In this document: positions 16,477-19,157 of the stretch, one piece after another
Position numbering within the stretch: the first letter of the stretch is position 1
Layout of the letters: every line of letters begins with the position of its first letter
Source: Geomonas silvestris
GTDB taxonomy: Bacteria > Desulfobacterota > Desulfuromonadia > Geobacterales > Geobacteraceae
Length of the DNA: 64,000 nucleotides
Direction: 5' to 3'
NCBI RefSeq assembly: GCF_014193515.1
Contig: NZ_BLXX01000004.1
Coordinates: 62,001 to 126,000, forward strand
Made by a program: the position numbers and the translations under genes
The notes under the pieces: model-generated
Database searches by the model: none
Seen by the model: only the letters and a program-made list of their open reading frames with translations
Told to the model about the DNA's origin: nothing

Positions 16477-18450
16477 TTACCGGTTTCCAGCGGGAGCGGT
16501 CCTTTCGTGCAGGGTGAAGTAGAAGGTCGCCCCCCTCCCCGGCTCTCCCTCGGCCCAGATCCTGCCGTGGTGCCGCTCGATGATGGTCTGCGCCGTGGTA
16601 AGCCCCACCCCGAACCCCTCGAACTCCTCGCTTGGGTGCAGCCGCTTGAAGACTGCAAAGATCTTGTCGCTTTGCTGCATCTCGAAGCCGATGCCGTTGT
16701 CGCTTACGTAGTAGACCCGCCTCCCCTGCACCCGCTTCATCCCGAAACGGATCACGGGGTGCTCCCGGCGCGCCGAGAACTTCCAGGCGTTCCCCACCAG
16801 GTTTTTCAGCGCCACCCTCAGCAGCTTCTCGTCCCCCGACACCATCACCCCCTCCTCGATCTCGAAGCTGGCCTGCCGGTCCGGGTAGTGGATCTGCAGC
16901 TCTGCGGCGATGGCGCCTACGATGTCGCTCAGGTCGAACCGGGTGGTGTGCAGCTTCACGTGGGCGAAACGGGAAAGGTTCAAAAGCGAGGTGATGAGGC
17001 CATCCATCCCCCGGATCTCCTGGAGCACGTTGGCAAGGAAGCTGCGGCACTGGTCGTCCAGCTTCTCCGCAGCCAGTTCGGCGATGGCCTGGCAGTAGCT
17101 GTTGATGTTGGTGAGCGGGCCGCGCAGATCGTGGGAGACGGTATAGCTGAAGGCCTCCAACTCCTTGTTGGCCCGCTCCAGCTCCAAGGCCCGCGACGAG
17201 AGGTCCGTGTTCAGCGCCTTGATGCGCCGTTCCGCCTCCTTGTGCGGGGTGATGTCGTGCACCATCCCGTAGGAGCGGATCACCTTTCCGATGTGGTTGC
17301 GCAGGTGCTCGCACTTTTGGTGCAGGTAGCGCACGGCACCGTCGGAGGTCCTCACGATCCGGTGCTCGGTCTCGTACCCGTCGCAGGGAAACTCGAGGGA
17401 GTTGCGGTAGCGCTCCGCCACCATCTCCCGGTCCTCGGGATGGACCGCCTGCAGGAAGACCTGGTGGCTCGCCGGGATCTGCTGTGCATCGAGCCCCAGG
17501 ATCCGGTAGATCTCGTCGGACCAGACCAACGTTCCGGTCTCGTAGTCGAACTGCCAGCTCCCCAGCTGCGCGATGCGCTGCACTTCCCGCATCTGCCGCT
17601 CGCTCGCCTTAAGAGCCTGCTCCGCGAGCTTGCGCTCGGTAATGTCGCGCACCAGCTCGATGCCGGCGATGATCCGTCCCGACTCGTCGCGCAGCGGAGA
17701 CGCCGTGAGCTCTCGGTAGACGGTGCGCCCCTCCCGGACCTCTGCCTTTTCCACGGTGTGGATCTCACCGTCCAGGAAGGTCTGGGCCACCGGGCAGTTG
17801 TCGCAGACCGTGGGGCACTGCCCCATGGCGAGGTAGCAGTGTTCTCCCTGGGTGTTGCCGGTGAGTTCGACCAGGATCTGGTTCTGGTAGAGGATGCGGA
17901 ACTCGCGGTCCACGATGACGAGCCCCTCCCCGAGCGCCGCAATGATCGCCTCGGAACGCGCCTGTTCCCGAGAGGAGCGCGCCAGGGCAGCCTTGAGAGC
18001 CTCTTGCACCTTCCTGCGCTCGGTGATGTCGCGGTCGATGCCGCGCAGCCCGATGAGCCGTCCCCGCGGGTCGAGGATCGGCACCCCACTGGTCTCCAGG
18101 GTGCGCAGGGTCCCGTCCTTGTGGAGGTTCAGGTTTTCCACGCCCTGGAACGGTTGAGGATGCTGCAAGAGGTGGTTGATCTTTTCCCGCATGCGCAGTG
18201 CCTCCTCAAGCGGCATGAAGTCGAAAGGAGTCCTCCCCAGCACCTCTTCCGGGGTGTAGCCGAGCAGGTCGTAGACCTTGGGACTGGCATAAACGTACCG
18301 CAGCTCCCTATCAACCTCCCAGATCCAGTCACTGGTCTGCTCTATCAGGGCCCGGAACTGCTGTTCTCTCTGTAAAGCTTTCCACTGGGTGCCGTGGCGT
18401 GCTGTCTGGTGATCCAACGGGTGCGGGTTCGGTATCATAGGTAGCCCCAT
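16477..18450 (-). CDS. PAS-domain sensor histidine kinase (three PAS, one Cys-rich)
   Basis: About 657 residues from the ATG on 18450. An in-frame ATG at 18510 lies upstream of the expected transcription start of the promoter at 18499-18526, so I reject it. No membrane segments. Three PAS domains in series (about 30-145, 165-275, 285-405), each ending DITE or DIT. PAS2 carries C205, C212, C216 and C219 (C-x6-C-x3-C-x2-C), possibly a metal or redox site. Then HisKA with SYTVSHDLRGPL (H440) and HATPase with NLVGNAWKFS, YVSDNGIGFEM and GFGVGLTTAQTI. It is a cytosolic kinase with no partner regulator beside it, so its output is unknown. It faces the MoxR operon tail-to-tail. Confidence 0.9.
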   Translation of the reverse strand: MGLPMIPNPHPLDHQTARHGTQWKALQREQQFRALIEQTSDWIWEVDRELRYVYASPKVYDLLGYTPEEVLGRTPFDFMPLEEALRMREKINHLLQHPQPFQGVENLNLHKDGTLRTLETSGVPILDPRGRLIGLRGIDRDITERRKVQEALKAALARSSREQARSEAIIAALGEGLVIVDREFRILYQNQILVELTGNTQGEHCYLAMGQCPTVCDNCPVAQTFLDGEIHTVEKAEVREGRTVYRELTASPLRDESGRIIAGIELVRDITERKLAEQALKASERQMREVQRIAQLGSWQFDYETGTLVWSDEIYRILGLDAQQIPASHQVFLQAVHPEDREMVAERYRNSLEFPCDGYETEHRIVRTSDGAVRYLHQKCEHLRNHIGKVIRSYGMVHDITPHKEAERRIKALNTDLSSRALELERANKELEAFSYTVSHDLRGPLTNINSYCQAIAELAAEKLDDQCRSFLANVLQEIRGMDGLITSLLNLSRFAHVKLHTTRFDLSDIVGAIAAELQIHYPDRQASFEIEEGVMVSGDEKLLRVALKNLVGNAWKFSARREHPVIRFGMKRVQGRRVYYVSDNGIGFEMQQSDKIFAVFKRLHPSEEFEGFGVGLTTAQTIIERHHGRIWAEGEPGRGATFYFTLHERTAPAGNR

Positions 18451-18498
18451 TTCGGAAATGCAGTACCAAGATGTGCGCATTCTAACCTTACCGCTCAC

Positions 18499-18526
18499 AC
18501 TATACAACATTTTTTAATTACGTCCA
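18499..18526 (-). promoter_or_regulatory. Sigma-70-like promoter of the PAS kinase
   Basis: On the minus strand TGGACG (18526-18521), a 16-base spacer and TATAGT (18504-18499), in an AT-rich patch. It leaves about 42 bases of leader before the ATG on 18450. Confidence 0.5.
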
Positions 18527-18690
18527 TACTATGAGCGTAAGAAAATGTGCCACAATGCTTTGTTTTTTATGAGCAAATAGGACTTATTTTCTCCGCTTTA
18601 CGCGCCCGACGCCCCCCCTCCTCCTATATTTGTTTTTTTGGATATACTCCTTCCTGAATATCGAGTATAGTTCGCGAGGGAGGAAACACG

Positions 18691-18849
18691 ATGCGAGATC
18701 TGTTGATTCTGGTGGGGGTTGTGGTGTTTTGGGTGGTACTGCAAAAGTACATCCTGCCGCGCTTCGGGATTGAAACCTGAATGTCGCCGGCCTGTACCTC
18801 CGGGGACCGGGGGGAGAAAAAGAAGGACGCGAAAGACGGGAGAGAGTAG
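18691..18849 (+). CDS. Tiny membrane protein; in-frame TGA may encode selenocysteine
   Basis: Read normally the ORF is 29 codons (18691-18780): MRDLLILVGVVVFWVVLQKY, then ILPRFGIET, one transmembrane helix with a ribosome site GGGAGGAAACACG. If the TGA at 18778-18780 is read through, the frame continues 22 more codons to a TAG at 18847, giving a 52-residue protein with U-M-S-P-A-C then a Lys/Asp-rich cytosolic tail. The continuation keeps coding-like codon use (18 of 22 third positions are G or C), whereas flanking DNA does not. A G-rich hairpin (CCTCC / GGGGG, loop GGGGACCG) lies 17-34 bases after the TGA, a plausible bacterial SECIS position. Selenoprotein status is an inference; the plain alternative is a 29-residue membrane peptide. 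Confidence 0.5.
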
Positions 18850-19100
18850 CAAGGCGATTAGACACGGGTTCACGGCCAAAACAGACGCACAGAGACCTGA
18901 GACGTTGGCCACGGAGACACGGAGTTCACGGAGAGAACCAAACGAACAAAATCTGGGACGTTAACCATTGAGAGACGGAGAACTGCTAACGTCAAATACG
19001 GAGAGGAGAATCCAAAACGGGTCGCGCGGCATAACAGACCTCTGACGGATTATTGATCACAAGCCTTTGGTGTTCTCCGTGTTCTCCGTGCCTCCGTGGC
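18850..19100. repeat. CACGGAG inverted-repeat element
   Basis: GGCCACGGAGACACGGAG starts at 18907, and its reverse complement arm TTCTCCGTGTTCTCCGTGCC ends near 19093, extended by TCCGTGGC to 19100. The arms are about 30 bases each and about 135 bases apart. No gene is seen in this stretch. Confidence 0.75.
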
Positions 19101-19137
19101 AAAAAAAGGGCGTCCGGCATAGTGCCGGGCGCCCTTT
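19101..19137 (-). terminator. Intrinsic terminator after ahcY
   Basis: The stem AAAGGGCGTCCGGCA (19105-19119) / TGCCGGGCGCCCTTT (19123-19137) has one G-T pair; on the minus strand it is followed by a T-run (19107-19101). Confidence 0.9.
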
Positions 19138-19157
19138 CGTGTTGATGCCGGCGGCTA

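Follow-up and report, generated by a model that had tools for sequence, protein, structure and literature searches.

The window examined here, a stretch of 64,000 nucleotides from Geomonas silvestris, harbors a very short gene whose reading frame is crossed by a TGA codon (Table 1). The frame opens with the ATG at 18691, runs for 29 codons to the TGA at 18778-18780 and continues for 22 codons to a TAG at 18847-18849. The preliminary description of this DNA had reported such an arrangement, together with a strong ribosome site, a coding-like composition after the TGA and a hairpin, and all of these are present: 18 of the 22 downstream codons (82%) end in G or C, and the hairpin lies 17 to 33 bases beyond the TGA. 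With the in-frame TGA read as U, for selenocysteine (Sec), the product is MRDLLILVGVVVFWVVLQKYILPRFGIETUMSPACTSGDRGEKKKDAKDGRE. Its layout is simple, comprising one membrane helix followed by Sec, a Cys five residues further on, and a basic tail. The U-x4-C motif that had been pointed out earlier is thus found as U-M-S-P-A-C.

Table 1. Coordinates of the selenoprotein gene and its parts within the window
Feature	Positions	Strand	Details and basis
Selenoprotein gene	18691..18849	+	52 residues, Sec at 30, Cys at 35, TAG end
Shine-Dalgarno-like ribosome site AGGGAGGA	18677..18684	+	6 bases before ATG; from the sequence
Single hydrophobic helix, codons for residues 2-24	18694..18762	+	AlphaFold model
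In-frame TGA, read as selenocysteine (residue 30)	18778..18780	+	TGA in 196/196 distinct members
C-terminal tail after Sec, basic, 22 codons	18781..18846	+	codon-position constraint; predicted without regular structure
TGT codon of Cys35, Sec +5	18793..18795	+	tail Cys in 191/196 members
SECIS-type hairpin CCTCCGG-GGA-CCGGGGG, apical loop 18804-18806	18797..18813	+	published criteria, covariation

The gene stands by itself. Its neighbors in the window, named from their translations, are what we take to be a divergent PAS sensor kinase gene and a convergent S-adenosylhomocysteine hydrolase gene. The locus is best explained as a one-gene unit. No close co-directional neighbor is found, so its context within the window is uninformative on function. 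A scan for promoters and terminators returned no terminator and a single promoter-like site on the opposite strand, which equals the chance expectation. Rfam, searched at E <= 1 over 18400-19150, gave a single match, far under threshold and outside the gene. The interval that separates the selenoprotein gene from the hydrolase gene also contains a 38-base inverted repeat (arms 18905-18942 and 19066-19103, 84% complementary, 123 bases between them), which may be a mobile or REP-type element.

This single reading frame belongs to a family that extends across the phylum. When the 52-residue reading was used as a query, relatives were found in 83 of 97 related genomes, and all 88 matches carry the TGA. 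A profile built from 43 members found the gene in 168 genomes out of a phylum-wide sample of 395, representing 112 of 246 genera, with TGA in every row among the matches listed. A scan of named genomes with one pattern retained 80 of 126 related stretches, TGA being present in 80/80; Geomonas, Citrifermentans, Geobacter, Geotalea and Oryzomonas are among the hosts, and the nearest named relative within these 80 is that of Geomonas limicola (L095), with 81% identity. A search of plasmids gave no match. One member (L146) lies on a contig labelled Planctomycetota, that is, outside the phylum, a record for which gene transfer or a binning error is possible. Altogether, 256 family loci were fetched, many of them repeats; 254 show a TGA member and the others are L070, which has the TGA, and L226. 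Neither the reading of the 80 named-genome stretches nor that of the 256 fetched loci was filtered for TGA. A loose-pattern search also caught unrelated stretches without a TGA, which were dropped from the member set. Members are here called distinct when they are not identical across 100 bases around the TGA, and the 196 distinct members consist of a first set of 190 plus L206, L230, L231, L234, L248 and L226.

At the Sec position, TGA is found in all 196 distinct members, never TAA, TAG or a Cys codon, and even L226, in which one residue is inserted before the TGA, conforms. A Cys-for-Sec form was not found among the 196 members, the 97 related genomes or the 80 named-genome stretches, nor among the matches listed in the phylum search of 395 genomes; outside the phylum, the search for such a form consisted of the one-pattern named-genome scan. 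A Cys codon at the TGA position in relatives had been proposed as the confirmation of the selenoprotein reading, and this expectation failed. As no Cys homologue was found, the usual proof from a Cys/Sec pair of proteins is missing. A Cys homologue is a usual criterion by which a selenoprotein is recognized, although not an obligatory one.

The second half of the motif is less constant than the Sec. A Cys follows in the tail of 191 of the 196 members, and in the first 190 its spacing from the Sec is +5 in 172, +6 in 15, +9 in 1 and +12 in 2. The two +12 members, L165 and L166, carry the partner at the end of UMSSPQAGRKDSC and represent a natural spacing variant. Five divergent members (L206, L230, L231, L234 and L248) have no tail Cys yet retain both the TGA and the hairpin, so an intact Sec/Cys pair is evidently dispensable, and the U-x4-C motif, though common, is not universal in the family. 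On the other side of the Sec, W14, P23, G26 and T29 are invariant across 43 aligned members, and the Sec lies seven residues past the Pro of a helix-ending LPxxG motif. Some of the comparisons below use a set of 136 members picked by a pattern of W, P, G and T plus TGA, in which those residues are fixed by construction while the Cys was not demanded. Among the 54 members outside this pattern-chosen set, 45 have Thr just ahead of the Sec and 49 have a Trp within the helix.

The peptide after the TGA is itself under constraint. In 586 pairs drawn from the 136 members, pairs that are not independent of one another, the differences per first, second and third codon position amount to 0.233/0.081/0.451 before the TGA and 0.205/0.158/0.355 after it, as against 0.66/0.65/0.66 after the final stop, where all three positions behave alike. 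Third positions vary most on both sides of the TGA, which, as a pattern of substitution, shows coding constraint on the downstream peptide. The lower third-position change after the TGA than before it fits an additional constraint on the RNA. The conserved in-frame TGA is therefore flanked by coding sequence on both sides, and the absence of a conserved downstream peptide in relatives, which had been named as evidence against Sec, did not occur.

The RNA immediately after the TGA bears the features of a bacterial SECIS element. In the window the hairpin has 7 bp, a GGA loop that begins after 23 nt and a local energy of -12.1 kcal/mol. Judged by the criteria given in the available text of PMC13188914, except that 3 closing pairs were demanded here against a published stem of 4-16 bp, a suitable hairpin occurs in 182 of the 196 members, namely 176 of the 190 and all 6 further members; the energy criterion is missed by 14 of the 190. 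For those 190, synonymous-codon shuffles pass in 1771 of 5700 cases (31%) and random TGAs of the same loci in 982 of 2850 (34%). The 54 more divergent members show the same contrast, with 49 passing as against 483 of 1620 shuffles. In 155 of 190 members the loop begins 20-24 bases past the TGA, and its first bases are most often GGA or GGT. RNA after the TGA is also more stable than its synonymous shuffles, with a mean z of -1.30 as compared with -0.13 for an upstream control (136 members), the window's own value being modest at -0.74.

The pairing itself covaries. Within the 136-member set, 101 members could be registered on a 3-base loop, and pairs 4-6, which the hairpin finder does not demand, are formed in 99, 95 and 96 of them through several pair types. 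Across 172 members, pairing at fixed columns, which were chosen from the commonest loop position, reaches 0.745 against 0.31-0.52 when the columns are slid; when the 3' halves were re-dealt 500 times, the mean was 0.591 and the maximum 0.623. Fixed-column pairing in the 101 members without the (G)DR motif is 0.663, versus 0.36-0.51 slid. The stability, codon-position, SECIS-shuffle and fixed-column pairing controls all exclude the six added members.

The machinery for Sec insertion is encoded in the same genome, which carries selA, selB, selD and a tRNA-Sec that scores 78 bits, above the cut-off, so that the other circumstance named against the reading, a lack of selA, selB or selC, did not arise either. 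The selD gene (G000:C11:84133-85047) has one in-frame TGA, which passes the same hairpin test (-14.1), and from its sequence selD is likely to be a selenoprotein gene in its own right. Among the 97 relatives, with selB counted where it exceeds the cut-off, 78 have both the gene and selB, 6 selB only, 5 the gene only and 8 neither (p 2e-5). The corresponding figures for selA in the 395 phylum genomes are 161 with both, 194 with selA only, 7 with the gene only and 33 with neither (p 6e-4), where 20 of the selA-less genomes are among the matches listed and the rest are deduced from gaps in the genome numbering; both association tests ignore relatedness and assembly gaps. Put another way, 8 of the 13 selB-less relatives lack the gene too, as do 33 of the 40 selA-less phylum genomes, but the gene is absent also in 194 of the 355 genomes that have selA, which makes the phylum-wide link weak. 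Of the seven assemblies that carry the gene but no selA, six have a selB above the cut-off; for the seventh, G262, the searches at the limits used returned neither selA nor selB. In five of the 97 relatives (G041, G043, G074, G076 and G085) the gene is present but no selB exceeds the cut-off; G043 and G076 contain selB fragments, and G041, G074 and G085 show none at the limit used. The genome of the last of these, G085, is 99% complete and has retained the gene, TGA included.

Two other ways of reading the TGA have to be set against Sec. It could be an ordinary stop between two tiny genes lying side by side, the first for a membrane peptide of 29 residues and the second for a peptide started from the next ATG by stop-start coupling, and an ATG does directly follow the TGA in 144 of 190 members, the window included. 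However, another codon stands there in the other 46 (CTG in 18, GTG in 4, as well as GCT, GGC, CTC and others), the stop is never TAA or TAG, the tails of the 190 members are short at 14-37 codons, the hairpin both passes the SECIS criteria and covaries, and the presence of the gene tracks selB and selA; we reject this reading as highly improbable. Equally improbable, and likewise rejected, is programmed read-through of the UGA with an ordinary amino acid, aided by the hairpin and yielding a minor extended form: it would conserve TGA, hairpin and coding tail just as well, but not account for a hairpin that matches the SECIS spacing and loop rule, the co-occurrence of the gene with the Sec machinery, or a Cys nearby in 191 of 196 members, as in many Sec redox pairs.

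Sec decoding, which the preliminary description had proposed, is in our view near certain on this sequence evidence. It draws support from the invariance of the TGA, from a SECIS-type hairpin that is conserved and covaries, from the coding constraint and from the joint occurrence of gene and Sec machinery. We put at about 95% the probability that the locus encodes a micro-selenoprotein in which Sec is inserted at the UGA by means of SelB and the hairpin. SelB carrying Sec-tRNA would bind the hairpin immediately downstream of the UGA, so that translation would not terminate there but incorporate selenocysteine.

The decoding is standard, and as far as checked it is the protein family, its size, its membrane form and its lack of Cys forms that are new. 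For the window protein, Pfam gave one chance-level match (E 0.17), and NCBIfam at E up to 1 gave nothing. The solved structures of the PDB gave one chance-level match (E 0.48). The 43 members have weak and scattered matches in NCBIfam, the best of them (0.018) to ATP synthase subunit B. None of the 119 selenoprotein families in the 2026 catalogue fits by motif or description, as far as its available text goes (PMC13188914), those families without a Pfam or NCBIfam model being compared by motif and name only. The family is likewise not described in the accessible portions of PMC1914089, PMC12013277, PMC1794560, PMC5029168 and PMC8318568. The available text of PMC12013277 states that most known selenoprotein families have Cys homologues, and the authors of deep-Sep note there that their method may filter out small families that lack them. 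The tiny size and the absence of Cys homologues are thus a likely reason for the absence of the present family from the catalogue.

Bacterial selenoproteins decoded through SECIS and SelB, such as FdhA and SelD, share with the window gene an in-frame TGA, a G-rich apical loop, the SECIS spacing and the sel genes. In contrast to them, the window protein has 52 residues, one membrane helix, a U-x4-C motif and no Cys form. Eukaryotic selenoproteins K and S, likewise small, cross the membrane once and bear their Sec in a C-terminal tail, and so resemble it in size, topology and Sec position; there is no sign of a common origin, the Pfam search with the window protein having given only the chance-level match mentioned above. 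Another candidate from the Geobacter group is the cytochrome c selenoprotein GSU2937/GSU2936, for which, according to the available text of its description (Fujita et al. 2007, PMC1914089), homologues without Sec are likewise lacking. It is, however, a multihaem cytochrome for which its authors, in that text, found no SECIS, whereas the window protein is tiny and has a clear hairpin; in the 2026 catalogue, GSU2937/GSU2936 may be what is entered as ExtKL. If the Sec reading is true, a family present in about two fifths of the sampled phylum genomes (168/395) is missing from the catalogue and the checked family models, selenium would prove to be used more widely by these bacteria than is known so far, and nature provides a test of why some proteins require Sec and never Cys.

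With respect to protein form, AlphaFold predicts one helix over residues 2-24 and a tail without regular structure. The overall mean pLDDT is 67, rising to 88 over residues 1-10 and to 86 over residues 11-20, and the model is of low confidence outside the helix. In membrane proteins, orientation can be judged from the positive-inside rule. Over the 190 members, the first five residues carry a mean net charge of -0.37 and the segment that follows the helix one of +2.78; in 178 of them the C-terminal segment is the more positive, a pattern that suggests a cytoplasmic C-terminus. The product would thus be a single-pass membrane protein that presents its Sec at the cytoplasmic surface. The likeliest chemistry is that the selenol would attack a disulfide, persulfide or similar oxidized substrate at the membrane surface, after which the nearby Cys, where present, may resolve the adduct as a selenenylsulfide that a thioredoxin-type system would re-reduce. 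The five members without Cys would require an outside thiol.

What surrounds the other loci varies between clades, and no neighboring gene is constant across them. Beside the 190 loci, with each neighbor cluster named from one representative, there are CcdA/DsbD-like genes at 27, TlpA-like thioredoxin genes at 27 and glyoxalase-fold genes at 24, mostly downstream and on the opposite strand, together with an RND-pump cluster at 20, an ArsR-like regulator cluster at 10, a metallo-beta-lactamase-fold protein cluster at 9 and, upstream, a C_GCAxxG_C_C redox protein cluster at 12. At the 80 named loci, a YgaP-like membrane domain occurs at 12 and a rhodanese cluster at 9. Some C_GCAxxG_C_C proteins (PF09719) are selenoproteins according to the available text of PMC13188914; they are different proteins from ours and merely its neighbors at those 12 loci.

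A Sec at the membrane surface, the usual nearby Cys and the thiol- or sulfur-related neighbors in several clades favor a role within the class of membrane-anchored selenol/thiol redox proteins, usually with a nearby thiol. The members without Cys reduce the weight of this assignment, which we make tentatively and at less than even odds. The broader picture, of a Sec-obligate membrane family of about 50 residues that is lost rather than converted to Cys where Sec machinery is absent, and that acts as a membrane selenol redox or persulfide relay in which Cys is unable to substitute and the partner Cys is dispensable, falls a little short of even odds.

Another function that could be envisaged is that of a small structural subunit in a larger membrane complex, with its Sec exposed to the cofactor or substrate of a partner. 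This would suit the very small size of the protein, its single membrane pass, its strongly conserved helix end, the absence of predicted structure from its tail and the persistence of the Sec in members that have no Cys, but the lack of a neighbor gene constant across loci argues against it, and we consider it unlikely, if still a serious contender. A selenium/sulfur ligand for a metal or metalloid, for instance in a chaperone or sensor that serves the neighboring RND pump and ArsR-type regulators, seems unlikely too, and slightly the more so. The ArsR-like and RND-pump clusters beside 10 and 20 loci speak for it; most of the 190 loci are without those neighbors, CcdA/DsbD-like and TlpA-like genes are each found beside 27, and Cys spacings of 5, 6, 9 and 12, with five members lacking the Cys, would make a loose ligand set.

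Two further observations concern the other members of the family. Of the members whose TGA is preceded by an ATG at a distance of 26-33 codons, 178 in all, 170 have an SD-like 4-mer in front, loosely defined and counted without a chance control. At L098, L094, L101, L103, L113 and similar loci, the selenoprotein gene is part of a co-directional run that includes an RND pump, a YgaP-like domain and a metallo-beta-lactamase-fold protein, with C_GCAxxG_C_C, rhodanese and ArsR genes added in some, and this run is a candidate sulfur or metalloid stress operon.
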